Of a stretch of DNA of 64,000 nt, positions 3,448 through 63,262 are shown piece after piece (the first letter of the stretch is position 1; each line of letters begins with the position of its first letter). Under the pieces are notes generated by a model. The model did no database searches, was not told the origin of the DNA, and saw only the letters and a program-made list of their open reading frames with translations. The DNA lies in contig OZ024879.1 of assembly GCA_964017185.1 (NCBI GenBank), positions 23,935,456-23,999,455 on the forward strand, in the 5' to 3' direction. The translations under genes were made by a program, and so were the position numbers. The stretch comes from Rugalucina vietnamica (Eukaryota > Mollusca > Bivalvia > Lucinida > Lucinidae).

Positions 3448-3448
3448 A

Positions 3449-3650
3449 CAATTTGGGTTTCCTACTAGGTCTGACACAAATCAGCCTGTACAGTCACAGC
3501 TTGAAATTTTGGATTTAAGTATAAGAGGGATTCTACTATCCGTGTAGCGAAAACAAAGGCACTGATCAGCTTCCCGGTTACCGCGAAGCTGGTCTGCGCC
3601 TTTGTTTTTGCCTATGCAGAAAGTTGGTTTTCCCATGTGGTGGCTCATTT
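3449..3650 (-). mobile_element. Palindromic MITE copy 3
   Basis: Same family, directly abutting the HINE-like copy A. The hairpin arm is diverged (GATCAGCTTCCCGGTTACCG). Confidence 0.6.
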
Positions 3651-3747
3651 ATAAAAAAAAAAATAATATAAAACTGTTTGGTGACTGTAAAAGGTTCAGT
3701 GGGTACCTAATCCTTAAAGTCTTGGTCAAATCACACATCGTACATAC

Positions 3748-3888
3748 CCTGAGAAAGTGACAAGTTCTGGTTCCCGTTCTGGGCTCCCCTCTGACCCTGT
3801 CTCATCATCCACAATACCCAGCTCCTCATCTGTGTCACCCGCGGGGCCCTGGGTCAGGAATGTGGGCGGGGCTAGTGGTACCATGTAA
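3748..3888 (-). CDS. CCDC60-like gene, exon 6
   Basis: 141 nt, acceptor ATTTTGTAG, donor GG|GTATGT, phase 2 at both ends. Encodes a proline-rich start (MVPLAPPTFLTQGPAG), then a strongly acidic, probably disordered stretch (DTDEELGIVDDETGSEGS). Its GC content is clearly higher than that of the flanking introns. Confidence 0.65.
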
Positions 3889-4280
3889 CTACAAAATACA
3901 AAGTGTTTGGTAAAATACTGTGTTTAAACCAGAAAAATTCAGATAAATGTGTGCACAAGTATCTTCACTTTCTTAGCTGCAGTTTATTCAAAATCTAAAA
4001 CTTTGGCCAGCACAATGTTCATCAATTATCAATCAAGCAGGAATAGGCTGAATAGCCACAGTGTGACACTTAGGAATGCAGCACCTCATCAAATGCATGG
4101 ATTTTATAAGTTTATGAGAAATACTAGTAACAAGCAATTTCCTAATAAAAATTTCCTAAGGACAAAATTAATGGCACTAGAAAATTGCATTTCATGACAA
4201 AGTCTTCATGAAAGACAATGTATCAAATGTAGGGGTAGATCACAAGTCAGCTTCAAACTAAATCGGACATGCTACCCACC

Positions 4281-4400
4281 ATGTCCCGAGGGTATAAAAG
4301 TTTTTTCATGCTCAACTCAGCTGAGACTAAAATTTATCCTGCTCATAAATGTTAAAATGCCAACAATTGTTGGCATTTTAACATTTATGAACAGGATAAA
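4281..4400. mobile_element. Foldback element of the CTCAGCTGAG family
   Basis: TCCCGAGGGTATAAAAGTTT, CATGCTCAACTCAGCTGAG, then a hairpin TTAAAATGCCAACAATTG / TTGGCATTTTAACATTTATG. It abuts the outer nested HINE-like element. Confidence 0.5.
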
Positions 4401-7400
4401 CTAGAAATTGGCTGCAAGCAAGGCTTTCAGTATACCCCCCGCAAAATTATATGAAGCTGGCCAATAACTTCCTAAGTCAAACATGCAGAAAATGTGTCAA
4501 AGATATCTTTTCAGCATTATAATCCTTCATGTACATCCCCAGTATGCCAGTCACATCTATAAGATATCAAAAGAATATATTGAAAGCTTGAGGTTGATTT
4601 CACTGTTAGCACTATGATCATTGTTTATCATGAGAAATGGTAAAAATTGGCTAAGTTAAATAAAAGCTATAAATTTGTCAAAAACTAGAAATTGGCTGCA
4701 AGCAAGGCTTTCAGTATACCCCCCGCAAAATTATCTAAGGCCAATAACTTCCTTTAAGTCAAACATGCAAAACATTTGTCAAAAATATCTTTTCAGCATT
4801 ATAATCCTTCATGAAAATCCTCCGTATGTCTGACTCATGTCTGTAAGGTATTAAATAATATACTGAAAGCTCAGGGAGTAAAATTATTGTTGATTTCACT
4901 GTACACTGTTGATCATTATTTATCATGAGAAATGGTCAAAAATTGGCTATGCTAAAAAAAAAGCTGTAAATTTGTCAAAAATAAATTATTCAGCATAAGA
5001 ATTATTCATGCACATCTGAAATATATCTGGAACAAGTGTGCAAAGAATTCAAATGAAACAATGAAAGCACTAGGAGGACTTGATTTCATAAAGTATGCTC
5101 TACCAGCCGTATTGTATATTAGCGATGGTTGAAAAATGTCTAAGTTGAAAAATCCTGTAAATTTGTCAAAAATTATTTTTTCACCAATAAAATTCTTTAT
5201 GCACATCTTCAATATGTCTGTAACATGTCTGCAAAGTATTGAAAAGAATTACTGAAAGCCCCAGGAGGAGTTGGATTTCACAAAGTATGTACTATCAACC
5301 ATAATTGAATATAAGCAGAAATGGTCAAAATTGGCTAAGTTTAAAAAGCTGTAAATTTGTCAAAACTAAAATTTTCAGCATAAAAATTCTTCATGCACAT
5401 CTTCAATATATCTGGAACAAATCTGCAAAGAATTAAAAAGAAACAATGAAAGCCCTAGGAGGAGTTGATTTCACAAAGTATGCACTTCCAACCATTATTG
5501 TATGTAAGCAATAGTCGAAAAATGGCTAAGTTAAAAAATGCTGTAAATTTGTCAAAAACTATTTTTTCAGCATTATAATTCTTCATGCACATCTTCAATA
5601 TGTCTGTAACATGTCTGCAAAGTACTGAAAAGAAATACTGAAAGCCCTAGGAGGAGTTGATTTCACAAAGTATGTATGTAAGCAATAGTCGAAAAATGCC
5701 AAAGTTAAAAAATGCTGTAAATTTGTCAAAAATTATTTTTTTCAGCATTATAATTCTTCATGCACATCTTCAATATGTCTATAACATGTCTGCAAAGTAC
5801 TGAAAAGAAATACTGAAAGCCCTAGGAGGAGTTGATTTCACAAAGTATGTATGTAAGCAATAGTCGAAAAATGGCAAAGTTAAAAAATGCTGTAAATTTG
5901 TCAAAAATTATTTTTTCAGCATTATAATTCTTCATGCACATCTTCAATATGTCTGTAACATGTCTGCAAAGTACTGAAAAGAAACACTGAAAGCCCTAGG
6001 AGGAGTTGATTTCACAAAGTATGCACTACCAACCATTATTGAATATAAGCAATTATAGAAAAATTTGCTAAGTTAAAAATGCTGTAAATTTGTCAAAAAT
6101 GATTTTTTCAGCATGACAATTGTTCATGCACATCTGCAATATATCTGAAACATATCAGCAAAATATTAAAAGGAAACATTGAAAGCTGTAAGAGGAGTTG
6201 ATTTCACAAAGTATGTACTTTCAGTACTATGGCAAACATGTTATAGGAAGACTTAAAAAGTCCCATAACTCTTGCAATACTGACCCTTTGGCCCCTAAAT
6301 TCATACCACACATGTATTGTCTGATGGTGCAAGTGTGGTGAAAATTTGAAACAAATCAGGCAAAAGCTACTCAAGTTATTCAGCAAAGATGTCCAAATGT
6401 TGACGGAATGACGGAATGACGGAATCACGGAGTCACGGAATCACGGAATGACGGACAGGCTGAAAACAGTATACCCCCCTAAAACTTCGTTTTGCGGGGG
6501 GTATAATTAAATTTTCAGCATGAAAATTATTCCTGCACATCTAAAATACATCTGGAACAAATCTACAAAGAATTTAAAAGAAACACTGAAAGCCCTAAGA
6601 GGAGTTGATTTCACAAAGTATGCACTACCAACCATTATTGTATATATGCAATGGTAAAAAAATGGCTATGTTGAAAAATGATGTAAATTTGCCAAATATC
6701 ACTTTTTCAGTATTATAATTATTCATGCACATCTTCAATATGTGTGGAACATGTCTGCAAAGTATTGAAAAGAAATACTGAAAGCCCTAGGAGGAGTTGA
6801 TTTCACAAAACATTATTGTATATAAGCAATGGTCAAAAATGGCTATGTTAAAAAATGCTGTAAATTTGTCAAAAATTATTTTTTCAGTATTATAATTCTT
6901 CATGCACATCTTCAATATGTGAGGAACATGTCTGGAAAGTATTGAAAAGAACTAGAAATTGGCTGCAAGCAAGGCTTTCAGTATACCCCCCGCAAAATTA
7001 TCTGAAGCTGGCCAATAACTTCCTAAGTCAAACATGCAGAAAATTTGTCAAAGATATCTTTTCAGCATTATAATCCTTCATGTACATACCCAGTATGCCA
7101 GTCACATCTATAAGATATTAAAAGAATATATTGAAAGCTTGAGGTTGATTTCACTGTATGCACTATGATCATTGTTTATCATGAGAAATGGTAAAAATTG
7201 GCCAAGTTAAATAAAAGCTGTAAGTTTGTCAAAAATTAAATTTTCAGCATGAAGATTATTCATGCACATCTAAAATATATCTGGAACAAATCTACAAAGA
7301 ATCTAAAAGAAACATTGAAAGCCCTAGGAGGAGTTGATTTCACAAAGTATGCACTACCAACCATTATTGTATATAAGCAATGGTCAAGAAATGGCTATGT

Positions 7401-10400
7401 TGAAAAATGATGTAAATTTGTCAAATATCACTTTTTCAGTATTATAATTATTCATGCACATCTTCAATATGTGTGGAACATGTCTGCAAAGTATTGAAAA
7501 GAAATACTGAAAGCCCTAGGAGGAGTTGATTTCACAAACCATCATTGTATATAAGCAATGGTCAAAAAATGGCTATGTTAAAAAATGCTGTAAATTTGTC
7601 AAAAATTAATTTTTCAGTATTATAATTCTTCATGCACATCTTCAATATGTGAGAAAGATGTCTGCAAAGTATCAAAAAGAAATACTGAAAGCCCTTGGAG
7701 GAGTTGATTTCACAAAATGTGCACTACCAACCATTTTTGTATATAAGCAATGGTCAAAAAATGGCTATGTTGAAAAATGCTGTAAATTTGTCAAAAATTA
7801 TTTTTTCAGCATTATAATTCTTCATGCACATCTTCAATATGTGTGGAACATGTCTGCAAAGTATTGAAAAGAAATACTGAAAGCCCTAGGAGGAGTTGAT
7901 TTCACAAAATATGCACTACCAACCATTATTGTTTAAGCGATGGTCAAAAAATGGCTATGTTAAAAAATGCTGTAAATTTGTCAAAAATTATTTTTTCAGC
8001 ATTATAATTCTTCATGCACATCTTCAATATGTGTGGAACATGTCTGCAAAGTATTGAAAAGAAATACTGAAAGCCCTAGGAGAAGTTGATTTCACAAACT
8101 ATGAACTACCAATCATTATTGTATATAAGCAATGGTCAAAAAATGGCTATGTTGAAAAATGCTGTAAATTTGTCAAAAATTATTTTTTCAGCATTATAAT
8201 TCTTCATGCACATCTTCAATATGTGTGGAACATGTCTGCAAAGTATTGAAAAGAAATACTGAAAGCCCTAGGAGGAGTTGATTTCACAAACTATGCACTA
8301 CCAACCATTATTGAATATGGCAATTATCGAAAATTGGCTAAGTTCAAAATGCTGTAAATTTGTCAAAATTCATTTTTTTCAGCATAATACTTCTTCATGC
8401 ATATCTTCAATATCTCTGGCACATATCTGCTAAGTATCAAAAGAGAATATTGAAAGCTGTAGGAGGAGTTGATTTCACAAAGTATGCACTATTAGCACTA
8501 TGGCAAACATTCTATGTATAGGCTTAAAAAGTCCCATAACTCTTGCAAAACTGACCCTTTGGCCCCTAAATTCATACCACACATGTGTTGTCTTATGGTG
8601 CAGGTGTGTTGAAAATCTAAAGAACATCGGGCAAAAACTACTTAAGTTATTCAGCAAAGATGTCAAAATGTTGACGGAATGACGGAATCACGGAATCACG
8701 GACAGACTGAAAACAGTATACCCCCCTAAAACTTCGTTTTGCGGGGGGTATAAATACTGAAAGCCCTAGGAGGAGTTGATTTCACAAAGTATGCACTACC
8801 AACCATTACTGTATATAAGCAATGGTCAAAAAATGGCTATGTTGAAAAATGCTGTAAATTTGTCAAAAATTATTTTTTCAGTATTATAATTCTTCATGCA
8901 CATCTTCAATATGTGAGGAACATGTCTGCAAAGTATTGAAAAGAAATACTGAAAGCCCTTGGAGATGTTGATTTCACAAAGTATGCTCTACCAACCATTA
9001 CTGTATATAAGCAATGGTCAAAAAATGGCTATGTTGAAAAAATGCTGTAAATTTGTCAAAAATTATTTTTTTTCAGCATTATAATTCTTCATGCACATCT
9101 TCAATATGTGTGGAACATGTCTGCAAAGTATTGAAAAGAAATACTGAAAGTCCTAGGAGGAGTTGATTTCACAAAATATGCACTACCAACCATTGTTGTA
9201 TAAGCAATGGTCAAAAAATGGCTATGTTAAAAAATGCTGTAAATTTGACAAAAATTATTTTTTCAGCATTATAATTCTTCATGCACATTTTCAATATGTG
9301 TGGAACATGTCTGCAAAGTATTGAAAAGAAATACTGAAAGTCCTAGGAGGAGTAGATTTCACAAACTATGAACTACCAACCATTATTGTATATAAGCAAT
9401 GGTCAAGAAATGGCTATGTTGAAAAATAATGTAAATTTGTCAAAAATTATATTTTCAGCATTATAATTCTTCATGCACATCTTCAATATGTGTGGAACAT
9501 GTCTGCAAAGTATTGAAAAGAAATACTGAAAGCCCTAGGAGGAGTTGATTTCACAAACTATGCACTACCAACCATTATTGAATATGGCAATTATCGAAAA
9601 TTGGCTAAGTTCAAAATGCTGTAAATTTGTCAAAATTCATTTTTTCAGCATAATACTTCTTCATGCATATCTTCAATATATCTGGCACATATCTGCAAAG
9701 TATCAAAAGAGAATATTGAAAGCTGTAGGAGGAGGAGTTGATTTCACAAAGTATGCACTATTAGCACTATGGCACATGTTCTATGTATAGGTTTAAAAAG
9801 TCCCATAACTCTTGCAAAACTGACCCTTTGGCCCCTAAATTCATATCAGACATGTGTTGTCTAATGGTGCAGGTGTGTTGAAAATTTAAAGAACATCGGG
9901 CAAAAACTACTTAAGTTATTCAGCAAAGATGTCAAAATGTTGACGGAATGACGGAATTACAGACAGGCTGAAAACAGTATACCCCCCTAAAACTTCGTTT
10001 TGCGGGGGGTATAAAAATGGCTATGTTGAAAAATGCTGTTAATTTGTCAAAAATTATTTTTTCAGCATTATAATTCTTCATGCACATCTTCAATGTGTGT
10101 GGAACATATCTGCAAAGTATTGAAAAGAAATACTGAAAGCCCTAGGAGGAGTTGATTTCACAAAATATGCACTACCAACCATTATTGTTTAAGCAATGGT
10201 CAAAAAGTGGCTATGTTAAAAAATGCTGTAAATTTGTCAAAAATTATTTTTTCAGTATTATAATTCTTCATGCACATCTTCAATATGTGTGGAACATGTC
10301 TGCAAAGTATTGAAAAGAAATACTGAAAGCCCTAGGAGAAGTTGATTTCACAAACTATGAACTACCGATCATTATTGTATATAAGCAATGGTCAAAAAAT

Positions 10401-11007
10401 GGCTATGTTGAAAAATGCTGTAAATTTGTCAAAAATTATTTTTTCAGCATTATAATTCTTCATGCACATCTTCAATATGTGTGGAACATGTCTGCAAAGT
10501 ATTGAAAAGAAATACTGAAAGCCCTAGGAGGAGTTGATTTCACAAACTATGCACTACCAACCATTATTGAATATGGCAATTATCGAAAATTGGCTAAGTT
10601 CAAAATGCTGTAAATTTGTCAAAATTCATTTTTTCAGCATAATACTTCTTCATGCATATCTTCAATATATCTGGCACATATCTGCAAAGTATCAAAAGAG
10701 AATACTGAAAGCTGTAGGAGGAGTTGATTTCACAAAGTATGCACTATTAGCACAATGGCAAACATTCTATGTATAGGTTTAAAAAGTCCCATAACTCTTG
10801 CAAAACTGACCCTTTGGCCCCTAAATTCATACCACACATGTGTTGTCTTATGGTGCAGGTGTGTTGAAAATTTAAAGAACATCGGGCAAAAACTACTTAA
10901 GTTATTCAGCAAAGATGTCAAAATGTTGACGGAATGACGGAATCACGGAATTACGGACAGACTGAAAACAGTATACCCCCCTAAAACTTCGTTTTGCGGG
11001 GGGTATA
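4401..11007 (-). mobile_element. Nested complex of HINE-like elements (intron 5)
   Basis: One outer element opens at 4401. A second opens at 4685 and closes at 6505. A third opens at 6952 and closes at 8752. Further closing ends lie at 10013 and 11007. The host repeat unit is cleanly resumed after each close: GTCAAAA before 4685 continues as ATTAAATTTT after 6505, and TTGAAAAG before 6952 continues as AAATACTGAAAG after 8752. There are three starts and four ends, so one start has been lost. Core units of about 175 bp fill the whole tract. Confidence 0.6.
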
Positions 11008-16207: not shown

Positions 16208-16284
16208 CTTCCATGTACAACAGCTTTATTGATAGTGTTCAAATCCTTCCTAGATCTCCTCAGAACAAACTTGGCTACAGCAAA
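16208..16284 (-). CDS. CCDC60-like gene, exon 3
   Basis: 77 nt entered in phase 0 and left in phase 2, donor AAG|GTCAGT. Encodes FAVAKFVLRRSRKDLNTIN and NKAVVHG, a basic helical segment. Its acceptor TTTACAG and first 14 coding bases are the downstream-most copy of a 43-bp tandem repeat that runs upstream into the intron to about 16792, so the exon is preceded by about 11 near-identical decoy acceptors. Confidence 0.7.
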
Positions 16285-16792
16285 CTGTAAACACACAGAT
16301 TTACAAGAAATATTTGGCTACAGCAAACTGTAAACACACAGATTTACAAAAAAAAAATATTTGGCTACAGCAAACTGTAAACACAGGGATTCACAAGAAA
16401 TATTTGGCTACAGTAAACTGTAAACACAGGGATTCACAAGAAATATTTGGCTACAGCAAACTGTAAACACAGGGATTCACAAGAAATATTTGGCTACAGC
16501 AAACTGTAAACACATGGATTCACAAGAAATATTTGGCTACAGCAAACTGTAAACACACAGATTCACAAGAACTATTTGGCTACAGCAAACTGTAAACACA
16601 GGGATTCACAAGAAATATTTGGCTACAGCAAACTGTAAACACAGGGATTCACAAGAACTATTTGGCTACAGCAAACTGTAAACACACAGATTAACAAGAA
16701 ATATTTGGCTACAGCAAACTGTAAACACACGGATTCACAAGAAATATTTGGCTACAGCAAACTGTAAACACACGGATTCACAAGAAATATCA
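16271..16792 (-). repeat. 43-bp minisatellite of 3' splice site plus exon start, about 12 copies
   Basis: On the minus strand each unit reads intronic GTGTTTACAG, then TTTGCTGTAGCCAA, the exact start of exon 3, then ATATTTCTTG. The copy at 16271-16287 is the real exon border. The others extend upstream in the intron. Read from a decoy acceptor in the gene's phase, the unit gives F-A-V-A-K-Y-F-L, then TGA. Copies differ by single bases and one A-run expansion near 16350. Confidence 0.85.
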
Positions 16793-34022: not shown

Positions 34023-35282
34023 TTAAATAGAAGCCTTAAATTCCTCAATGGTCTTAGATAGGACCACTGAAGAAGGGAGACTATTCCAAACCGGAATAGT
34101 TCTGGGGAAAAAGGAATTTTTCAGGGCATCACTATAGGCAAATGGTCTTGTGTATTGTGATTCATGTGATGCCCGAGTATGCCTTAGATTGGGTGCCGGG
34201 GTCAGGTATTTGTCTTTATCAAGAGACACTGTACCGGAGTAGAAGAATGTTAAGGAGGACCGCTCCCTGCGAGACTCCAGGGATGGCCACTCAAGTTCGT
34301 CTAGCATTTCACCGACGCTACTGGTGTTCCTCCATCGCCTGCAGGTCCACCGGGCAGCAGTCCTCTGCACCTTCTCCACCTTCTCAATCTGAGTTTCATG
34401 ATAGGAATGCCAAATAGGAGCTGCATACTTATGTTGAGGCCGAACCAATGTTTTGTATGCAACTTCCTTAGTATGCCTAGGTGCCAGTGCCAAATTGCGC
34501 CGAAGAAAACCCAAAGTCTTAGTTGCCTTGCATGTAATTTCAGAAATGTGTTGACCCCAATCAAGATCATCTGTGATAGTTAAACCGAGGTATTTAGCGG
34601 ACTGAACCTGTTCTAATGTTTGCTGATGCAGTGTGTAATTGAAATCTGTATGCCTGCTTGAATGTAGCCGCGTCACCCTCATTGAATGACATTTGCTAAC
34701 ATTGAATTTCATTTGCCAATCAATTTCCCATCTGACCAAGCTATTCAGGTCATCTTGTAAAATTTGACAATCCAATGGTGACTTGACATTTCTGTATAAA
34801 ACACAATCATCAGCAAATAGCCGAACAGATGACCTGATGTTGTCAGGAAGATCATTAATGAAAATAAGAAATAGGACCGGTCCTAAGACCGAGCCTTGTG
34901 GGACACCAGAAAGAACCGGGACTGGGTCTGAGGCACGGCCATCTAATACCACTTTTTGAAAGCGCTCAGAGAGCCACGAGTCGATCCACTTATGTGTAGA
35001 TCCTCTAATTCCGTAGAAGTCAAGTTTGTATAATAACCTTTTATGTGGGACCTTGTCAAAGGCCTTAGCGAAATCCATGACAATCACATCCGTCTGCCTG
35101 TGGCCACGACCCACTGCTCGGTCCAGATTACTAACCAAATCATGATAAAACTGAACTAACTGGGTTTCGCAAGACCTTTGACTTCGGAACCCATGCTGAC
35201 AGTCAGCAAGAATGTTTTCAAGAGCCAAGTGTTTGTTTATATTAATGACTATTATATGCTCTAGAGTTTTGCACAGATACAA
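34023..35282 (-). pseudogene. Non-LTR reverse transcriptase, main RT domain to C-terminus
   Basis: A 419-residue open stretch. It shows RT motifs MDFAKAFDKVPH (residues 69-80), [11 protein letters not shown] (125-135) and the catalytic FADD (156-159), then the thumb-like SAKYLG region and the typical tail IPVWNSLPSSVV. This is the DNA-making enzyme of a CR1/jockey-type element, which copies its RNA at the target site. The open stretch is intact, but it is cut off from the upstream part by a frameshift near 35270 and the element lacks the endonuclease, so it is dead. Confidence 0.85.
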
Positions 35283-36165
35283 GTAAGCGACACCGGTCGA
35301 TAATTAGCTGCATCGTATTTCTCACCTTTCTTAAATACCGGGGCTACATTTGCCTGTCGCCAATCGTCTGGTACAGTACCCTGAGCAAGCGACTCATTGA
35401 AGATATAGGTCAGTACAGGAGCAATTTCAGAACTACATTCCTTCAACACCCTAGCACTCAGGCCATCTGGCCCAGGCGCCTTATGTATATTCAAATTATT
35501 CAACAGTTTAATGACCCCATTGGGGTCAACTGTAATTTCACCCATAGCGGTGAAAGGACTTGTGCCTTTGGAGGGGATTTCATCATCTGATTCGCGAGTG
35601 AAGGCTGACTGAAACTGCCTATTACAAATATTAGCCTTATCCAAAGTGTCAGTCTTCAAGACCATTTTCTCTAAGAGTATTGATCCCAGACGCGTCTTTC
35701 TTAAGGAACTTGACAAATGACCAAAACTTTTTTGCCTTTTCATTTTTTCGGGGACAATCGGGATCAGGGTTATCATTTTCAAAGGAGAAGATATTGGTAA
35801 TATGCTTCCAATATGCATCTCTAATGCTCTTTTGAACATGTGCTCTGAACCGTTTGTAATGGTTCTTAATGTCAGGGCTGCTTGACTTGCGAGCACGAAA
35901 GTAAAGTTTATCACGTTTCCTTATCAAGCGTTTGATCGAGCTATCTGTCCATGGTAAGCTATATTTTGTCTTGGTCATTTTTGATGGAATAAACCTTTCA
36001 ATAGCCGAGAGAACCTCCGACTTAAAACTGACCCACATGTCATTGACTGACACCTGACTATGGTCAGTTGAAAGGAACATGCGCGTTAGATGGTCATGGA
36101 GACCGTCCATATCCGCTCGTTTATATAGGAAAATCTTACGCGGGGCCTGCTGAATCCGTTTAGCC
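35264..36165 (-). pseudogene. Non-LTR ORF2 linker and first RT motifs
   Basis: Two overlapping frames, 36110-35649 and 35914-35261, cover the linker (NDMWVSFKSEVLSAIERFIP, KRLIRKRDKLYFRAR) and the first RT blocks (KAPGPDGLSARVL, VPDDWRQANVAPVFKKGE, NYRPVSLT). A frameshift lies near 35650-35690 and another where it meets the main RT domain. The element is 5'-truncated at about 36165, after the endonuclease domain would have ended. The first 18-bp tandem repeat upstream begins at 36302. Confidence 0.75.
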
Positions 36166-36221
36166 TTTATCTACTCTACTATAGAAATAACAAATACAAA
36201 TACAGGATAATAGTAGTATAC

Positions 36222-36920: not shown

Positions 36921-37318
36921 CACTCCACTACGTTCCGTTGCGGACCTTGATGGTTCTATTTGATCAAAACAATTTCCAATTGAATAAAACAGGATTACAC
37001 ACGGTTGACACGTGGTCAATGCATCCGAATTTGACCTTGTTGACCTCACGTGTGTGCCTTGACGTCACGGTGCGCGCTTTGTCACGTGAGCATGGAGAGC
37101 TTCTTTTTGATTGGCTTAGCATTGCGTAAAAAAATAAGAGCAAACGAGCTAGCTGAATGTGTAAATCTCACAGAAATTATGGATTTTAAGCAGAAAATCA
37201 GAGACTTTTCTTATGGAACATCACCTGGAGAAAAAAATTAATATCTCTGTGAACAGTATGCGAAGTGAGGGTGACAATAGATCATTGAGTAAAAGCATTT
37301 CATGGGAATGCTTAAGAT

Positions 37319-37434
37319 GTGGAATGCCAAACTTTTCTACATCTTTGTTTGATACTACAGCTTCTCTCGAGATATCCAACAGTTTTGAGACTCTATCAAC
37401 CTTCCGAACCTGACAGTCCGGTACCAGACAACAT

Positions 37435-37467
<33 letters not shown>

Positions 37468-38110
37468 GGCAGCTTCTTCGCCTATTGTGCAACAGAAAGA
37501 AGCTAAGACAAAGACCAAGAAGGCGGTCTCAAATCACTCACTTAGAATCTTGATCATGAATTGTCAGTCTATCAAGAACAAGAAGGCTGAAATTCATACT
37601 GTTATTGATTCGGCTAAACCAGACATCATCTTGGGGAATGAGTCGTGGTTAACCCCTGAATTAAAGAACTCAGAAATTTTCCCAGATTCTTTTGATGCTA
37701 TCCGGAAAGACAGAGCAGGTGACAGCCAATGTGGTGGTGTTTTCATTGCTTACAGGCGTGACCTACTTTGTACGGAAACTCCGGAACTGGACGCCAAATG
37801 TGAAGTCGTTAGGTGTAAATTGAACATAATATTGGAGGTAGGACTTTGTATCTTGGTTCTTTTTATCGCCCTCCAAAACGCATTGAAGAAGAGTATCTTA
37901 TGGAATTCAATAAATCCTTGACTAGGATAATGTCAAACAAAAATGCTCATGTCTTGGTGGGAGGTGACTTTAACTGCGGGGATATTGAGTGGAGCACTAT
38001 GCAGGTACCCGAGGGGGTACCGCAAAGGCCAATACAGTGTCAACTTTTGGAAATTGCTCAAGATCACTGCCTTTCCCAAGTTGTGAATATTCACACCCGC
38101 ACATGACAAG
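37319..38110 (+). pseudogene. Non-LTR ORF2 endonuclease domain (APE type)
   Basis: Starts with a run of proline codons made by a C run (37437-37465), then LRILIMNCQSIKNKKAEIHT (catalytic Asn), PDIILGNESWLTPE (the Glu motif), GGVFIAYRRDL, then, after a frame change near 37850, LGSFYRPP and VLVGGDFNCGDIEW (the DFN motif). This AP-endonuclease-like domain nicks target DNA to prime reverse transcription. Frame changes near 37420, 37850 and 38100 make it non-functional. Confidence 0.8.
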
Positions 38111-38119
38111 ACCCTTGAT

Positions 38120-38937
38120 CTGCTACTCACTAACTCTCCATCCCCAGTTAACCGCGTAAAAGGGATGCCCCCGATTGGTAAAGCTGATCATGACATAGTC
38201 TATGTAGAATATGATATTAAGGCCAAACGGATCCAGCAAGCCCCGCGAAAGATTTTTCTGTACAATCGAGCGGATATGGAAGGTCTACGCGACCATCTAG
38301 TGCGTTTTAGGGATTCGTTCCTTTCATCTGACCACAGTCGTATGTCAGTTAATGACATGTGGGTCAGTTTTAAGTCCGAAGTTCTCGAGGCTATTGAAAG
38401 GTTTATTCCAACAAAAATGACCAAGTCAAAATATAGTTTACCATGGATCGATTGTACGATCAAACGCCTCATTAAGAAACGTGACAGGCTTTATTTTCGT
38501 GCTCGCAGGTCAAGCAGCCCTGACATTAAAAACGGTTTAGAGCACATGTCCAAAAAGCCATCAGAGATGCGTGTCAGAAACATATTTCCAATATTTTCAT
38601 TCTGGAACCGGAAAACACTGATCCCGATAGCCCAAGGAAAAATGAAAAAGCTAAAAAGTTTTGGTCATTCGTAAAGTCACTCAAAAAAGACGCGTTTGGG
38701 ATCACCTCTCTCCGCGAAAATGGAATTCTTAAAACAGACACTGTCGATAAGGCAAATATTTGTAACAAACAATTTCAGTCAGCTTTTAGTCGCGAAACTG
38801 ACTCTGAAATCCCCTCCAAAGGCACTAGTCCATTCACCGCCATGGGTGAAATCACAGTTGGCCCTAAAGGGGTCCTCAAACTGTTAAATGGGCTTAAGGT
38901 ACACAAGGCACCTGGGCCAGATGGCCTGAGTGCTAGG
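38120..38937 (+). pseudogene. Non-LTR ORF2 linker, up to the hAT-like insertion
   Basis: Reading KADHDIVYVEYDIKAKRIQQ, NDMWVSFKSEVLEAIERF and KRLIKKRDRLYFRAR, matching the minus-strand copy. A short deletion relative to that copy lies near 38540. The block ends at GPDGLSAR, where the 1.2-kb element is inserted. Confidence 0.75.
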
Positions 38938-40140
38938 CATACATGTGATATCTAACGATTGGTCGTAAATCTCCCGATATTTTGGTCTCAAAAACGCTCT
39001 CACGATATAAAAACCTAAAACCCGATGAAGAAAAATTACTATGGTGTTTTTCCGCAAGTCACCATTTTTTTAGTTTTCTCCAAAAAGATCGTTTAGCAGA
39101 ATGTTTACAGCGCCTACTCGATGAATTTTCGTAGTGTGAAGTGACAGGTGTGATTATTGGCCTCAGGTAATTGAATTAACGCTATTAGGTGCTAGGTAAT
39201 TGTCGTACTTGATTTGAGGATGTCAGGTAAGCTTACGTAAGGATCATCAGCTGACATGGTTGATTGATCGGTGATCATCGGTATGATCGGGGTTTGTCTT
39301 GAGCTTGATAAAAAAAAATACACCTACCTTCAAAAAAGCAATAATCCCAATAATATTACTCCAAAACACTATTCCAACATGTTCCAATAACTTGTTCTAA
39401 GACTCGAAGTAAACAAATGACAAGACACAGCTTTCCATTTATATGCAATTATTTATTGTGTAAACATAAACCATGTGCTTTTTACGTCTAGTCAAACTTG
39501 GAGTTATATGACATCATCATGGCCAAGTGGTGCAGTGGTTAAGGTGTTGGCTTGTCACGCGGGAGGTCGTGAGTTCGTATCTTCGCTGGAGCAATTTTTT
39601 TTTTTTTTTTTTTTTTTTTTGAAAAAAAGATTATTTTTTTTTTTATCCTCTTTTCACATTCAAACCTCCTTTTTTTGCATTAGTTTGCTTCTCTTTTTCT
39701 TATCTGCACAATTTAGATTTTTTTTTTTTTACTTTTTTTTTTCAAAATAGATCTACATGTAATTTCCTTTTCAAACCTATACAAACTTAATGATTTACTA
39801 ATTTCACAATTACTTATTTTATCAATGAACCACTGTTGAAGGAAGCTATCATTATCCATTTGGTACATAGCAAGTATGTCTTACAACCAGAAGTAAATTA
39901 CTTTCAATAATTATAATAAAATTCTAATTTTAAGTAATCATCTATAGATTTGTGAGAATCAGTTGTATATGCATATTGAAGTGCAAAACATTTGACAAAA
40001 TGCTGGACTGCTGAAAATATTTTCCAGGGTAAAATCGGCTTTAATTTTGTCGAGAAAAAACCTCCCTATTTCAGACCTAAATCTCCCTACCAAAAATGTC
40101 CAATCTCCCTATTTGGGCATGAGAATGTATCACATGTATG
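38938..40140. mobile_element. hAT-like non-autonomous element, 1,203 bp, with perfect 8-bp duplication
   Basis: Ends CATACATGTGATA and TATCACATGTATG. The target GTGCTAGG is repeated at 38930-38937 and 40141-40148, and the interrupted ORF2 resumes exactly. An 8-bp duplication with CA...TG ends fits hAT. No transposase is visible. The interior carries a tRNA-like SINE head and long T runs. Confidence 0.75.
39519..39625 (+). repeat. tRNA-derived SINE head with T-run
   Basis: An A box TGGTGCAGTGG (39528-39538) and B box GAGTTCGTATC (39571-39581), spaced as in a tRNA, then a T23 run from about 39597 which would end polymerase III transcription. The anticodon arm does not fold convincingly, so it is a SINE or tRNA pseudogene rather than a tRNA. 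Confidence 0.5.
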
Positions 40141-40548
40141 GTGCTAGGGTGTTAAAAGAATGTAGTTCTGAAATTGCTCCCATTCTGGCCTATATCTACA
40201 ATGAGTTGCTTGCTCAGGGAAATGTACCAGATGATTGGCGACAGGCAAATGTAGCCCCGGTATTTAAAAAAGGTGAGAAATATGACACTGCAAATTATCG
40301 ACCGGTGTCGCTAACTTGCATATCTGTTGCAAGACCCTTGAGCATATAATAGTCAGCAACATTAATAAGCATCTTTCCCTTGAAAATATTCTTGCTGACT
40401 GTCAGCATGGCTTCCATAGTCAAAGGTCTTGCGAAACCCAACTGGTTCAGTTCTTTTATGACATGGTTAGTAACCTGGATCGAGCCTTGAACCGGGGTCA
40501 CAGACAAACGGATGTGATCATCATGGATTTCGCAAAGGCCTTTGAGGT
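40141..40548 (+). pseudogene. Non-LTR RT, first motifs
   Basis: Resumes after the hAT-like element with VLKECSSEIAP, VPDDWRQANVAPVFKKGE, NYRPVSLTCI, then, after a frame change near 40320, CKTLEHIIVSNINKHLSLEN and MDFAKAF, where it is cut by a second insertion. Confidence 0.75.
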
Positions 40549-41015
40549 TGCATTTCACCATTAGGTTTTCCATAGGTGACAATGTTAAGTTAACGTTGTG
40601 TCTCCTAGCTCAAAAACTAGGCATACAAAATTCACAAGACTGGTCTCATTTTAAACGTTCATCATAGCCCATTAATTTTTAAAAATGAAAATTATCAGCA
40701 TGTTTACCTACTCAATTCAAAGCTATGTCCCCTTTAACGGAAGCACCCTCAGAAACCATGTTTCGTAATGCGGGTGGGTCTTCAGAGGGGTTCATGGAGA
40801 AAAATCCGTCCCGTTCCCATCCGATACCGGGATTTATTGACTTAAACATGGCATTCGAAACGGCGCATGTTTCAAGTTTTAAAACAAACACTTCACAGCG
40901 GAAATCAATCAACGATTATTGACAGGTGACATCATTTTTGTCTCTAATACAAAGTAAATGCTCTCCCCGAAAAAGGCGGGGCGAGTACTCATGAATATTT
41001 AGTAGTATGTACCCT
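40549..41015. mobile_element. 467-bp insertion in the RT domain with 4-bp duplication
   Basis: Target TTGA is repeated on both sides (CCTTTGA|GGTTGCATTTC ... GTATGTACCC|TTGACAAGG). Ends GGTTGCATTT and, reversed, GGGTACATAC are only weakly alike. No recognised coding sequence. Confidence 0.6.
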
Positions 41016-42060
41016 TGACAAGGTGCCTCACAGGAGACTACTCTACAAACTGCACTACTATGGGATTAGAGGATCTACTCATCAGTGGATCGCTTCATGG
41101 CTCTCTGAGCGCTTTCAAAAAGTGGTGTTAGATGGCAGTTACTGTACTAACTGGTGTCCCTCAAGGATCGGTCTTGGGACCGGTCCTTTTCTTGATTTTC
41201 ATAAATGATCTTCCGGACAATATCAGGTCATCTGTTCGCCTTTTTTGCCGATGATTGTGTTCTGTATAGGAATATTAAAACCCTCACAGATTGCCAGATC
41301 TTACAGGATGACCTGAATAGCCTAGGACAATGGGAGACCGATTGGCATATGAAATTTAACGTTGCCAAATGTCATTCAATGAGGGTGACGCGGCACCTCC
41401 CTAGCAATCAAATACATTTTAACTACTCACTACATCAACAAACATTGGAACAGGTTCAGTCTGCCAAATACCTTGGAATTACTATCACTGACGACTTGGA
41501 ATGGGGTCAACATGTTGCTGAAATTTCTTCTAAAGCAACTAAGACTTTGGTTTTTCTTCGGCGCAATTTGGCACTTGCACCTAGGCATACAAAGGAAGTT
41601 GCATACCAAACATTGGTTCGCCCTCAGCTTGAGTATGCAGCTCCTATTTGGCATCCCTATAATGAAACTGAGGCAAAAAAGGTGGAGAAAGTGCAGAAGA
41701 CAGCAGCCAGGTGGGTCTGCTGGCGATGGCATAATGCCAGTAGCGTCGATGACATGCTTGATGATTGAACTTGAGTGGCCATCCCTGGAGGACCGCAGGC
41801 TAAAGTCTTCCCTAACTTTCTTTTACAAGATTCACTCCGTTACAGTGTCTCTTGACAAAGATAGATATCTGACCCCGGCACCCAGACTAAGATATACCAG
41901 GACATCTCATGAATCACAGTACACACGATACATGTCCTATACTGATGCTGAAGAATTCTTTCTTCCCAAGGACTATTCCACTTTGGAATAGTCTACCTTC
42001 TTCAGTGGTCGCATCTAAGACCACGGAAGAGTTTAAGGCTCTGAGTGACATTTAAACCAT
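41016..42060 (+). pseudogene. Non-LTR RT catalytic part and C-terminus
   Basis: Continues KVPHRRLLYKLHYYGIRGST, a frame change at the VPQGS motif (41150-41190), the catalytic FADD (near 41247), SAKYLGITITDDLEWGQHV, another frame change near 41765, and a tail ELEWPSLEDRRLKSSLTFFY to LPSSVVASKTTEEF. Length and motif order match the minus-strand copy. At least three frame changes make it dead. Confidence 0.8.
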
Positions 42061-43605: not shown

Positions 43606-43640
43606 TCCCAAAGTCTCATGTAAAAACATTTGTGTTTCAG

Positions 43641-43822
43641 ATCTAGAATGCCAGGTTTTTCCTACCACGAGATAGATGAGATTGAACCAGAACTAGACCA
43701 CCATGTCCAAGTCCGGCCCGGGACATATAATATCAACTCTCCAGTCAAACCACTCCTGTCCTCAACACCGCTGTACACAGGAATATTACAGATATTGGTT
43801 GGTCTGATAACTGCTGGACTAG
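43641..43822 (+). CDS. MS4A-like gene, exon with start codon
   Basis: The acceptor TGTGTTTCAG ends at 43640. The ATG is at 43648, so at least one upstream 5' UTR exon is expected. Encodes an acidic N-terminus (MPGFSYHEIDEIEPELDHH), a proline-containing stretch and the start of helix 1 (PLYTGILQILVGLITAGLG). Donor CTAG|GTATGT at 43823, phase 1. No signal peptide: the first hydrophobic stretch is at residue about 44, consistent with a cytosolic N-terminus. Confidence 0.7.
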
Positions 43823-43887: not shown

Positions 43888-44086
43888 GAGCCACGTCAGA
43901 AAACCGGATTTTTGCCTGGCGCAGATCAGCTTCGCAGTAACTGCAAAGCTGATCAGCGCCTTTGTTTTCGCTACATGGATAGTACAATTCTTCTTCTTCG
44001 TAAATCGGAAGAATTTCAAGCATCTGTAGCTGCACAGACCGGTTTATGTCAGACCAGGTCTGAAACTCCAAAGACCCGTTTTTTCA
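43888..44086 (+). mobile_element. Palindromic MITE copy 11 (intron 1 of MS4A-like gene)
   Basis: Near full length, hairpin GGCGCAGATCAGCTTCGCAG / CTGCAAAGCTGATCAGCGCC. It begins 65 bp after the exon donor. Confidence 0.65.
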
Positions 44087-44521: not shown

Positions 44522-44625
44522 GTGGTATTGAAGTGTTTTTAGTTCCTGTCCTCATCAACAGGGAGAGTGGCGTATCATTGAGCTACCTTAACTGCTATGG
44601 ATCGGCAATATTCTCAGGGTTGTTG
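44522..44625 (+). CDS. MS4A-like gene, exon 2
   Basis: 104 nt, acceptor CTGTCTGTAG, donor TTG|GTAAGT. Completes helix 1 (GIEVFLVPVLI), gives a short polar loop (NRESGVSLSYLNC) and begins helix 2 (YGSAIFSGLL). The loop between helices 1 and 2 is short, as in MS4A proteins and unlike the long loops of true tetraspanins. Confidence 0.7.
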
Positions 44626-47454: not shown

Positions 47455-47511
47455 ATGGTGTTAGCAGGAAGTTGTGCTGTAAGAGCACATATCATACCAG
47501 ACAGAAAGGAG
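47455..47511 (+). CDS. MS4A-like gene, exon 3 (57 bp)
   Basis: Nineteen codons, acceptor TTGTATTGCAG, donor GAG|GTAGGT, phase 0 at both ends. Encodes MVLAGSCAVRAHIIPDRKE, the end of helix 2 and the basic cytosolic turn that follows. Its in-frame ATG is internal to the protein, not a start. The next intron is 7.2 kb and ends in the acceptor minisatellite. Confidence 0.65.
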
Positions 47512-49700: not shown

Positions 49701-52700
49701 AACTGAGATTTGCTACTGTTTCAGGTCCTGAGGTTCTATGGAGTGAGTCTGTTTAGTTTTGTCTGAGATTTGTTTCTGTTTCAGGCCCTAAGGCTCTATG
49801 AAGTGAGTCTGTTTAGTTTTGTCTGAGCTTTGCTACTGTTTCAGGCCCTGAGGTTCTATGGAGTGAGTCTGTTTAGTTTTGTCTGAGCTTTGCTACTGTT
49901 TCAGGTCCTGAGGTTCTATGGAGTGAGTCTGTTTAGTTTTGTCTGAGCTTTGCTACTGTTTCAGGCCCTGAGGCTCTATGGAGTGAGCCTGTTTAGTTTT
50001 GTCTGAGCTTTGCTACTGTTTCAGGCCCTGAGGTTCTATGGAGTGAGCCTGTTTAGTTTTGTCTGAGCTTTGCTACTGTTTCAGGCCCTGAGGTTCTATG
50101 GAGTGAGCCTGTTTAGTTTTGTCTGAGCTTTGCTACTGTTTCAGGCCCTGAGGTTCTATGGAGTGAGCCTGTTTAGTTTTGTCTGAGCTTTGCTACTGTT
50201 TCAGGCCCTGAGGCTCTATGGAGTGAGTCTGTTTAGTTTTGTCTGAGCTTTGCTACTGTTTCAGGCCCTGAGGTTCTATGGAGTGAGTCTGTTTAGTTTT
50301 GTCTGAGATTTGCTACTGTTTCAGGCCCTGAGGCTCTATGGAGTGAGTCTGTTTAGTTTTGTCTGAGCTTTGCTACTGTTTCAGGCCCTGAGGTTCTATG
50401 GAGTGAGCCTGTTTAGTTTTGTCTGAGATTTGCTACTGTTTCAGGCACTAAGGCTCTATGGAGTGAGTCTGTTTATTTTTGTCTGAGATTTGCTACTGTT
50501 TCAGGCCCTGAGGCTCTATGGAGTGAGTCTGTTTAGTTTTGTCTGAGCTTTGCTACTGTTTCAGGCCCTGAGGCTCTATGGAGTGAGTCTGTTTAGTTTT
50601 GTCTGAGCTTTGCTACTGTTTCAGGCCCTGAGGCTCTATGGAGTGAGTCTGTTTAGTTTTGTCTGAGCTTTGCTACTGTTTCAGGCACTGAGGTTCTATG
50701 GAGTGAGCCTGTTTAGTTTTGTCTGAGCTTTGCTACTGTTTCAGGCCCTGAGGTTCTATGGAGTGAGTCTGTTTAGTTTTGTCTGAGCTTTGCTACTGTT
50801 TCAGGCCCTGAGGTTCTATGGAGTGAGCCTGTTTAGTTTTGTCTGAGCTTTGCTACTGTTTCAGGCCCTGAGGTTCTATGGAGTGAGTCTGTTTAGTTTT
50901 GTCTGAGATTTGCTACTGTTTCAGGCCCTAAGGCTCTATGGAGTGAGTCTGTTTAGTTTTGTCTGAGCTTTGCTACTGTTTCAGGCCCTGAGGCTCTATG
51001 GAGTGAGTCTGTTTAGTTTTGTCTGAGCTTTGCTACTGTTTCAGGCCCTGAGGCTCTATGGAGTGAGTCTGTTTAGTTTTGTCTGAGCTTTGCTACTGTT
51101 TCAGGCACTGAGGTTCTATGGAGTGAGTCTGTTTAGTTTTGTCTGAGATTTGTTTCTGTTTCAGGCCCTAAGGCTCTATGGAGTGAGTCTGTTTAGTTTT
51201 GTCTGAGCTTTGCTACTGTTTCAGGCCCTGAGGCTCTATGGAGTGAGTCTGTTTAGTTTTGTCTGAGCTTTGCTACTGTTTCAGGCCCTGAGGCTCTATG
51301 GAGTGAGTCTGTTTAGTTTTGTCTGAGCTTTGCTACTGTTTCAGGCCCTGAGGCTCTATGGAGTGAGTCTGTTTAGTTTTGTCTGAGCTTTGCTACTGTT
51401 TCAGGCCCTGAGGTTCTATGGAGTGAGCCTGTTTAGTTTTGTCTGAGCTTTGCTACTGTTTCAGGCCCTGAGGTTCTATGGAGTGAGTCTGTTTAGTTTT
51501 GTCTGAGCTTTGCTACTGTTTCAGGCCCTGAGGCTCTATGAAGTGAGTCTGTTTAGTTTTGTCTGAGCTTTGCTACTGTTTCAGGCACTGAGGTTCTATG
51601 GAGTGAGTCTGTTTAGTTTTGTCTGAGCTTTGCTACTGTTTCAGGCCCTGAGGTTCTATGGAGTGAGCCTGTTTAGTTTTGTCTGAGATTTGCTACTGTT
51701 TCAGGCCCTGAGGTTCTATGGAGTGAGTCTGTTTAGTTTTGTCTGAGCTTTGCTATTGTTTCAGGCCCTTAGGTTCTATGGAGTGAGTCTGTTTAGTTTT
51801 GTCTGAGATTTGCTACTGTTTCAGGCACTAAGGCTCTATGGAGTGAGTCTGTTTATTTTTGTCTGAGATTTGCTACTGTTTCAGGCACTGAGGTTCTATG
51901 GAGTGAGCCTGTTTAGTTTTGTCTGAGCTTTGCTACTGTTTCAGGCACTGAGGCTCTATGAAGTGAGTCTGTTTAGTTTTGTCTGAGCTTTGCTACTGTT
52001 TCAGGCACTGAGGTTCTATGGAGTGAGCATGTTTAGTTTTGTCTGAGCTTTGCTACTGTTTCAGGCACTGAGGTTCTATGGAGTGAGTCTGTTTAGTTTT
52101 GTCTGAGATTTGTTTCTGTTTCAGGCCCTAAGGCTCTATGGAGTGAGTCTGTTTAGTTTTGTCTGAGCTTTGCTACTGTTTCAGGCACTGAGGTTCTATG
52201 GAGTGAGCATGTTTAGTTTTGTCTGAGCTTTGCTACTGTTTCAGGCACTGAGGCTCTGTGAAGTGAGTCTGTTTAGTTTTGTCTGAGCTTTGCTACTGTT
52301 TCAGGCACTGAGGTTCTATGGAGTGAGCATGTTTAGTTTTGTCTGAGCTTTGCTACTGTTTCAGGCACTGAGGTTCTATGGAGTGAGTCTGTTTAGTTTT
52401 GTCTGAGATTTGTTTCTGTTTCAGGCCCTAAGGCTCTATGAAGTGAGTGTGTTTAGTTTTGTCTGAGATTTGCTACTGTTTCAGGTCCTGAGGCTCTATG
52501 GAGTGAGCCTGTTTAGTTTTGTCTGAGCTTTGCTACTGTTTCAGGCCCTGAGGCTCTATGGAGTGAGTCTGTTTAGTTTTGTCTGAGCTTTGCTACTGTT
52601 TCAGGCCCTGAGGTTCTATGGAGTGAGCATGTTTAGTTTTGTCTGAGCTTTGCTACTGTTTCAGGCACTGAGGTTCTATGGAGTGAGTCTGTTTAGTTTT

Positions 52701-54740
52701 GTCTGAGCTTTGCTACTGTTTCAGGCCCTGAGGTTCTATGAAGTGAGTCTGTTTAGTTTTGTCTGAGATTTGCTACTGTTTCAGGCCCTGAGGTTCTATG
52801 GAGTGAGTCTGTTTAGTTTTGTCTGAGATTTGTTTCTGTTTCAGGCCCTAAGGCTCTATGAAGTGAGTCTGTTTAGTTTTGTCTGAGATTTGCTACTGTT
52901 TCAGGCACTAAGGCTCTATGGAGTGAGTCTGTTTAGTTTTGTCTGAGATTTGCTACTGTTTCAGGCCCTGAGGCTCTATGGAGTGAGTCTGTTTAGTTTT
53001 GTCTGAGCTTTGCTACTGTTTCAGGCACTGAGGTTCTATGGAGTGAGTCTGTTTAGTTTTGTCTGAGATTTGCTACTGTTTCAGGCCCTAAGGCTCTATG
53101 AAGTGAGTCTGTTTAGTTTTGTCTGAGCTTTGCTACTGTTTCAGGCCCTGAGGTTCTATGGAGTGAGCCTGTTTAGTTTTGTCTGAGATTTGTTTCTGTT
53201 TCAGGCCCTAAGGCTCTATGGAGTGAGTGTGTTAAGTTTTGTCTGAGATTTGCTACTGTTTCAGGCCCTGAGGCTCTATGGAGTGAGTCTGTTTAGTTTT
53301 GTCTGAGATTTGCTACTGTTTCAGGCCCTGAGGTTCTATGGAGTGAGTGTGTTAAGTTTTGTCTGAGATTTGCTACTGTTTCAGGCCCTGAGGCTCTATG
53401 GAGTGAGTCTGTTTAGTTTTGTTGGGGTTCTCAGTCTACTGTTTCAGGCCCTGAGGTTCTGTGGAGTGAGTGTGTTAAGTTTTGTCTGAGATTTGCTACT
53501 GTTTCAGGCCCTGAGGCTCTATGGAGTGAGTCTGTTTAGTTTTGTCTGAGATTTGCTACTGTTTCAGGCCCTGAGGCTCTATGGAGTGAGCGTGTTTAGT
53601 TTTGTCTGAGATTTGCTACTGTTTCAGGCCCTGAGGCTCTATGGAGTGAGCGTGTTTAGTTTTGTCTGAGATTTGCTACAGTTTCTTGCCCTGGTTCTAT
53701 GCAGTGAGCCTGTTTAGTTTTGTCTGAGATTTGTTTCTGTTTCAGGCCCTAAGGCTCTATGAAGTGAGTGTGTTTAGTTTTGTCTGAGATTTGCTACTGT
53801 TTCAGGCCCTGAGGCTCTATGGAGTGAGTCTGTTTAGTTTTGTCTGAGATTTGCTACTGTTTCAGGCCCTGAGGCTCTATGGAGTGAGTCTGTTTAGTTT
53901 TGTCTGAGATTTGCTACTGTTTCAGGCCCTGAGGCTCTATGGAGTGAGCGTGTTTAGTTTTGTCTGAGATTTGCTACTGTTTCAGGCCCTGAGGCTCTAT
54001 GGAGTGAGCGTGTTTAGTTTTGTCTGAGATTTGCTACAGTTTCTTGCCCTGAAGTTCTATGCAGTGAGCCTGTTTAGTTTTGTCTGAGATTTGTTTCTGT
54101 TTCAGGCCCTAAGGCTCTATGAAGTGAGTGTGTTTAGTTTTGTCTGAGATTTGCTACTGTTTCAGGCCCTGAGGTTCTATGGAGTGAGCCTGTTTAGTTT
54201 TGTCTGAGCTTTGCTACTGTTTCAGGCCCTGAGGTTCTATGGAGTGAGCCTGTTTAGTTTTGTCTGAGATTTGCTACTGTTTCAGGCCCTTAGGTTCTAT
54301 GGAGTGAGCCTGTTTAGTTTTGTCTGAGATTTGCTACTGTTTCAGGCCCTGAGGCTCTATGGAGTGAGCGTGTTTAGTTTTGTCTGAGATTTGCTACAGT
54401 TTCTTGCCCTGAAGTTCTATGCAGTGAGCCTGTTTAGTTTTGTCTGAGATTTGTTTCTGTTTCAGGCCCTAAGGCTCTATGAAGTGAGTGTGTTTAGTTT
54501 TGTCTGAGATTTGCTACTGTTTCAGGCCCTGAGGTTCTATGGAGTGAGCCTGTTTAGTTTTGTCTGAGCTTTGCTACTGTTTCAGGCCCTGAGGTTCTAT
54601 GGAGTGAGCCTGTTTAGTTTTGTCTGAGATTTGCTACTGTTTCAGGCCCTAAGGCTCTATGGAGTGAGCATGTTTAGTTTTGTCTGAACTTTGCTACTGT
54701 TTCAGGCCCTGAGGTTCTATGGAGTGAGCATGTTTAGTTT
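49701..54740 (+). repeat. 60-bp minisatellite of 3' splice site plus exon start, about 84 copies
   Basis: Each unit holds a pyrimidine-rich tract and acceptor (GCTACTGTTTCAG), the first 37-38 bases of exon 4 (GCCCTGAGGTTCTATGGAGT onward) and a 22-base spacer. Units are strictly 60 bp from 49741 to about 53400, with a few indels later. Common variants are C/T and A/G at fixed sites (GAGCTTTG or GAGATTTG; GAGTCT, GAGCCT or GAGCAT). An in-frame reading from any decoy acceptor is ALRFYGVSLFSFV, then TGA. The final unit is the true border of exon 4. The array is not coding as such. Confidence 0.9.
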
Positions 54741-54813
54741 TGTGGGGGTTCTCAGTCTAGTCATTCTCTCTCAAGTCTGTTATACCAAATACTGGACACA
54801 CATAGACATCCAG
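54706..54813 (+). CDS. MS4A-like gene, exon 4 (exon beside the acceptor array)
   Basis: Thirty-six codons, donor CAG|GTAAGT. Encodes ALRFYGV, then helix 3 (SMFSFVGVLSLVILSQVCY) and the polar TKYWTHIDIQ. The acceptor TGTTTCAG and the first 37 coding bases are the last of about 84 tandem 60-bp copies. Only this copy continues past GTTTAGTTTTGT into GGGGGTTCTCAG and the remaining exon, so only this acceptor gives an open frame when spliced directly to the rest of the exon. Confidence 0.75.
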
Positions 54814-54822
54814 GTAAGTTCA

Positions 54823-63029: not shown

Positions 63030-63247
63030 GAGCTGTGCAGAGTTTCTGACCAGGTCCGACACAAACTGGTCTGTGCAGCCACAGAGGATGGCTAGAAACT
63101 TGAGATTTCGGATTTGAAAAGATGAGGGATTGAACTATCTGTGTAACGAAAACAAAGGTGCTGATCAGCTGTGCAGTTACTGTACAGCTGATCTGCGCCT
63201 TTGTTTTCGCATATGCAAATCGTTGGTTTTCTCACGCGAAGGCTCAC
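63030..63247 (-). mobile_element. Palindromic MITE copy 14, beside exon 5 acceptor
   Basis: Hairpin GTGCTGATCAGCTGTGCAG / CTGTACAGCTGATCTGCGCC, which keeps pairing by matched changes (GCTGTGCAG against CTGTACAGC). Its end lies 15 bp before the exon 5 splice site. Confidence 0.6.
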
Positions 63248-63262
63248 ATATTTTCATTTCAG

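Follow-up and report, generated by a model that had tools for sequence, protein, structure and literature searches.

The window, that is, the whole stretch of 64,000 nucleotides that was analysed, contains five coding exons of a CD20/MS4A-like gene and, between the third and the fourth of them, a long tandem array (Table 1). The five exons, which were read by hand, give 203 codons without a stop; the end of the gene lies outside the window. An acceptor-like AG ends at position 43640, ahead of the ATG of exon 1. In the predicted protein there are four hydrophobic segments (residues 36-70, 84-107, 114-139 and 154-183; 19-residue windows above 1.5).

Table 1. Coordinates of the gene and of the array in the window.
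Feature	Positions	Strand	Basis
Coding exon 1 of the CD20/MS4A-like gene, from the ATG	43648-43822	+	Hand-read, aligned to P0001-P0003
Coding exon 2	44522-44625	+	Junctions, frame, homologues
Coding exon 3 (length 57 nt, phase 0 on either side)	47455-47511	+	Junctions, homologues
Array of 84 units of ~60 bp, each with intron end including acceptor and exon-4 head	49703-54743	+	Tandem Repeats Finder, unit parsing
First unit, the sole one that keeps single-copy intron sequence upstream	49703-49762	+	Sequence, unit parsing
Relic GGGGTTCTCAGTCTA, a piece of exon 4 that lies past the unit, joined to an acceptor via a shared CTA	53424-53438	+	Exact string match
Last 22 units, higher-order repeat of six units (360 bp)	53426-54743	+	Lag-6 comparison with shuffles
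Unit 67, acceptor AG lost (TTTCTTG)	53666-53723	+	
Unit 73, AG loss as in unit 67	54024-54083	+	
Unit 79, AG loss as in unit 67	54384-54443	+	
Terminal unit, real border	54684-54743	+	Unit parsing, homologues
Coding exon 4 with the third hydrophobic segment (length 108 nt, phase 0 on either side)	54706-54813	+	Junctions, homologues
Coding exon 5, fourth hydrophobic segment	63263-63427	+	Junctions, homologues

A protein search gave four matches, namely three full-length homologues (P0001, P0002 and P0003, with 75, 66 and 59% identity to the window protein, respectively) and the window's own exon-5 frame (P0004). The longest contigs carrying P0001-P0003 have 1078 to 1409 bases, that of P0004 has 6,763,535 bases. 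That contigs as short as these hold an open frame running through five exons suggests spliced mRNA, and we infer that the three homologues represent transcripts. Around the joint of exons 3 and 4 the proteins read D-R/K-T-E and then A-x-R-F/L-Y-G-V, with an insert in none of the three homologues. Since all three read across this joint uninterrupted, homology supports an exon start at 54706 and bears out the preliminary description, in which the last unit of the array was the real intron-exon border.

The comparison with the Pfam CD20 family (PF04103) is less clear. The window protein obtains an E value of 0.00098 and 19.6 bits, which is below the gathering score of 27.9. Exons 1-4 score 22 bits and the protein without exon 4 scores 25.4 bits; since the latter score is higher, Pfam itself gives no support for exon 4. 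P0001 is annotated with PF04103 in the database, and all four aligned members match CD20 (best E 2e-07). A profile search with 8000 scored candidates found no further relatives beyond the first four matches, and a search of PDB sequences returned one chance-level match only (E 0.97).

Next, we asked whether the gene is dead or failing, i.e. a pseudogene on its way out that was broken by the array. An obstacle of such size before an exon could block expression, and the end of the coding region is beyond the window. On the other hand, we see 203 stop-free codons over five exons, an identity of 75% to P0001 and junctions at conserved places, and we consider the loss of the gene quite improbable.

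The number of tandem copies had been given as about 84. Two approaches agree with it: Tandem Repeats Finder reports 84.0 copies with a period of 60, 93% matches and a score of 8478, and cutting the sequence at the acceptor produces 84 units, which belong to 37 distinct types; 82 of the units have 60 bp, and the remaining two have 63 and 58 bp. Each unit combines 22 nt of intron end (consensus CTGAGCTTTGCTACTGTTTCAG) with 38 nt identical or almost identical to the start of exon 4, where 37-38 bases had been proposed; the terminal copy of this head occupies positions 54706-54743. The acceptor string GCTACTGTTTCAG has 70 exact copies in the 64-kb window, all of them within the array, and its reverse complement has none in the window. 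Outside the array, an ungapped comparison with the unit consensus reaches at most 33 of 60 matching bases in the window. The array is real and far beyond chance.

Potentially, the copy number could have been made or much inflated by the assembly. Arrays of this type are difficult to assemble, the precise number of copies is not trustworthy, and PMC3087553 reports that a similar array, a BflGb6 mirage (see below), was itself aberrantly assembled in a genome draft. However, the 37 unit types come in a non-trivial order, there are units of odd length, the 3' end shows a higher-order repeat and the contig is 6.76 Mb long. An assembly artefact is unlikely, and we would give it very little weight as an explanation.

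The preliminary description had also stated that every unit contains a full acceptor and that every decoy leads to TGA after 13 codons. Both statements hold with few exceptions. TTTCAG is kept in 81 of the 84 units, that is, in 80 decoys and in the real site. In units 67, 73 and 79, which are spaced six units apart, it is replaced by TTTCTTG; the three losses of the AG are probably copies of one change. Reading in phase 0 from the 80 decoys, we meet TGA after 13 codons in 79 cases, and only after 34 codons in unit 62, which reads into the relic. Among 15 positions, 8 or 9 are pyrimidines in 79 of the 80 decoys and 11 in the remaining one; the real acceptor has 9. A match to the branch-point motif yUnAy at -50 to -15 is found for 2 of the 81 array acceptors (the real exon-4 acceptor is without one) and for all four other hand-read acceptors of the gene. 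Given that 45% of 3054 background AGs lack a match and that all units share one ancestor, this scarcity is a hint only.

All 84 units also carry a donor-like GTGAGY about 18 nt past the acceptor position, preceded by the triplet GGA in 70 units, GAA in 11 and GCA in 3. A possible reading is that each unit is a phase-0 microexon of 18 nt, from the acceptor to GTGAGY, which adds six residues (ALRFYG-like) and no stop. A length of 18 nt preserves the frame and AGTGAG is present in 84 of 84 units, but the donors of the units pair weakly with U1: their duplex energies range from -4.6 to -8.4 kcal/mol, compared with -8.6 to -12.1 kcal/mol for the five donors read as real, among which the exon 4 donor (CAG/GTAAGT at 54814) reaches -12.1 kcal/mol. 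Furthermore, the intron to the next unit would have just 42 nt, unless units are skipped, the homologues are free of an insert at the joint (none of three), and variants in the exon heads, of which there are 14, have no synonymous bias. Weak donors, the lack of visible codon constraint and insert-free homologues led us to reject the microexons as extremely unlikely.

We also considered that RNA structure hides the decoys. In folds with 150 nt on each side, the mean unpaired value of the decoy AGs was 0.005 (n = 80) and that of the terminal AG 0.30. Across six other contexts the terminal AG varied between 0.017 and 0.487, for five consensus units the acceptor AG had 0.027, and in arrays with shuffled units (n = 60) 25% of 360 AGs were at 0.02 or below; this check of contexts and shuffles sampled 11 of the 81 acceptors, including the first and the terminal one. 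No robust structural reason for choosing the last AG emerged, and the idea was dropped. Folds of 120 nt in four stretches of the array gave z values from -1.02 to -1.37. No Rfam family matched at gathering score in 43000-64000, and the exact unit core was not found in viral contigs.

A clue to the origin of the array comes from the string GGGGTTCTCAGTCTA, which occurs twice in the window, once as the relic within the array and once in exon 4 beyond the unit (54745-54759). The relic passes into CTGTTTCAG through the shared CTA. The array thus includes a part of exon 4 that the unit lacks, which indicates that the border was its source, and we infer that two or more duplications took place, not all at the same breakpoints.

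To describe the turnover of the units, we compared them with each other. In the last 22 units, the mean difference at a lag of six is 2.0, while shuffles give 5.37 (sd 0.59), none of 2000 being as low. Over the whole array, neighbours differ by 3.76 and random pairs by 3.97 (sd 0.16), and 204 of 2000 shuffles were as low. Array-wide, neighbours are thus not clearly more similar than random pairs, and a simple picture of local duplication is limited to the 3' end. Identical units make up 159 of the 3486 pairs. Variants shared by at least two units are found in 6 of the 22 columns of the intron part and in 11 of the 38 columns of the exon part. In the 12 whole codons of the decoy heads, 4 variants are synonymous and 10 non-synonymous (27% synonymous expected, p = 1.0), with 14 variants only and hence low power. 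The decoy exon heads resemble non-coding DNA, and codon constraint is not visible.

We think it likely that the array is a tolerated border minisatellite of the kind called 'mirage', grown from a single intron-exon border in a working gene that keeps its last border. It builds on features that were observed: the layout of the units, the presence of further exon sequence among them, the six-unit repeat at the 3' end, the early stops and the joint in the homologues. As in a border minisatellite, the tandem repeats span the exon-intron boundary, and the authentic border survives as its last unit, within a gene that stays open over five exons.

The mutation mechanism, the tolerance of the array and the choice of the last acceptor can be pictured as follows. 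A segment comprising the final 22 nt of intron 3 and 38 nt from the start of exon 4 would have been duplicated in tandem. Slippage or unequal exchange would then have amplified it, and one or more later duplications would have used another breakpoint. Splicing to the last acceptor most likely removes the array, which lengthens intron 3 by ~5 kb, although some of the mRNA would be unproductive or lack exon 4. In most transcripts exon 3 is probably joined to 54706, since this is the sole acceptor directly before the full exon with its strong donor at 54814. Some use of decoys is expected; it would lead to TGA and, probably, to decay of the mRNA, as mRNAs with an early stop are subject to nonsense-mediated decay. 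Skipping of exon 4 would preserve the frame, since the exon is a multiple of three (108 nt) in phase 0 on both sides, and would remove the third hydrophobic segment. The intact decoys nearest to the real donor would form exons of 168, 228 and 288 nt. Since these are ordinary sizes and the acceptor is the same, exon definition alone fails to explain why the last site should win.

Minisatellites of this kind are known from lancelets. Two papers (PMC3087553, PMC3902484) describe 'mirages', i.e. tandem repeats across exon-intron borders, in BflGb6, BflGb9, Adh3, TnC and PGBD5. The BflGb6 repeat consists of the 3' end of an intron and the 5' part of an exon, and its units of 150-160 bp are present six times in one haplotype and three times in another; the Adh3 units have 10-72 bp, many copies in the mirages retain AG/GT signals, and length instability is reported, at Adh3 also somatic instability (PMC3087553). 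In PGBD5 there are border repeats of 60 and 108 bp (PMC3902484, which also names TnC), and a triplication is described for this gene. Our array is like BflGb6 in that it copies the acceptor side of a border and keeps the splice signals in many units, but it has 84 copies of 60 bp. For the lancelet mirages concerted evolution is reported within a cluster, and the edge units would be expected to stay out of it. In the present array a higher-order repeat and identical units are seen inside, and the edge units 1 and 84 are single types, but unit 84 shares a variant with five other units. The array belongs, on the acceptor side, to a known kind, and its copy number exceeds the lancelet figures given above (6, 3 and a triplication). 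A word search of the literature found no longer acceptor-side array among the matches listed, and passages of PMC3039753 and PMC12783039 mention no comparable array of acceptors.

Repeats that supply splice signals occur elsewhere, too. The human 6-16 gene, which is IFI6, is said to have a minisatellite that supplies multiple splice donors, whereas acceptors are repeated here. Introns are reportedly gained when segments bearing splice signals are duplicated in tandem; such segments are duplicated in our array as well, with no new intron shown. In human segmental duplications, PMC2812944 reports internal repeats at exon-intron borders with 27 intron modifications (on average 4 units of 30 bp), which brought alternative splicing and new introns to recently duplicated primate genes; our minisatellite likewise lies at such a border. 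A further likeness is to the VNTR in intron 18 of human ABCA7, in which a minisatellite includes a splice site at the edge of an in-frame exon. PMC5954066 gives it ~12 to 427 units of 25 bp, within the intron and on the donor side, and states that a longer VNTR is accompanied by more skipping of the in-frame exon and by lower expression. The effects of length were measured in ABCA7; the array described here differs in lying on the acceptor side.

Does the array act as a splicing rheostat? The preliminary description suggested such a role, with the copy number tuning the fraction of productive mRNA; on this reading the real acceptor would face competition from 80 intact decoys. The decoy acceptors are indeed nearly equal to the real one (in 79 of 80, pyrimidines fill 8-9 of the 15 positions), and TGA follows 13 codons after 79 of them. 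Precedents exist in two of the papers above: the ABCA7 array, which includes a donor, alters the skipping of exon 19 and correlates with expression (PMC5954066), and human border repeats can produce alternative splicing (PMC2812944). However, the same paper on ABCA7 finds the retention of repeat units constant with length, only exon skipping being changed, and the papers on lancelets report mirages without a disturbance of splicing (PMC3087553, PMC3902484), as suggested by Adh3 data and RT-PCR of the globins (PMC3087553). Undisturbed splicing at the low copy numbers of lancelets need not hold at 84. Variable columns are about equally frequent in the intron and the exon parts, which gives no sign that the acceptors are specially maintained, and the decoy heads look unconstrained (14 variants). 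We regard the rheostat as unsupported and unlikely; while the origin of the array from the border is explained, the rheostat is unproven.

If the splicing of a border minisatellite of this size is normal, the downstream context (the full exon and its strong donor) must outweigh the order and the number of acceptors. The locus is a natural stress test of the choice of 3' splice sites, with ~80 near-identical acceptors in steps of 60 nt and the right one last. Small differences between units would allow many used sites to be distinguished in RNA. The kind itself is already known from lancelets. The copy number, the units that can partly be traced and the membership of the exon in the array make this a good test system.

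What is notable here, apart from the copy number, are signs that variants are exchanged between the array and the coding exon. Here the start of a coding exon is part of a minisatellite, so that repeat turnover could alter the protein sequence. A stronger version, which we find unlikely, is that the copy number acts as a brake (through decay or in-frame loss of the third segment) and that exchange with the decoys rewrites the protein; the unit contains codons 1-12 of exon 4, and turnover of the array would therefore do the rewriting. Units 1 and 84 are single types, and the ATG variant of unit 84 is shared with five other units: codon 9 of exon 4 is ATG, as in units 39, 42, 44, 49 and 83. The first base of this codon is C in 64 of the 82 sixty-base units, and all three homologues (P0001-P0003) have leucine here. 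This pattern fits an exchange between the coding exon and the array, although a few parallel changes might also account for it. The mean difference of the terminal unit is 4.1 to units 1-40, compared with 5.7 to its neighbours 63-83.

By eye, an ACAG was seen in all three array units that carry TTTCTTG instead of TTTCAG (units 67, 73 and 79, starting at 53666, 54024 and 54384), its AG lying six bases 5' of the lost one. This ACAG would provide these units with an in-frame acceptor two codons earlier.

Directly 5' of the acceptor of exon 5, a coding exon of the CD20/MS4A-like gene, a very strong RNA hairpin is predicted at 63143-63262 (z = -8.96, folding score). It lies in a sequence that was seen again by eye near 43900, 46200 and 62300 and that looks like a short interspersed repeat.

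For the open reading frame at 34026-35303, which is reverse-transcriptase-like, a protein search in which 8000 candidates were scored gave 7612 relatives in the database, with a top identity of 96% among the matches listed.

Reverse-transcriptase-like ORFs and other tandem repeats in the window
Feature	Position	Details
Reverse-transcriptase-like ORFs	34023-36170 (-), among them that at 34026-35303	
Reverse-transcriptase-like ORFs	37316-41991 (+)	
~190-bp repeat, long arrays	2003-10746	three blocks: 2003-3170, 4914-8491, 8752-10746
43-bp repeat	16271-16790	twelve copies, 93% matches
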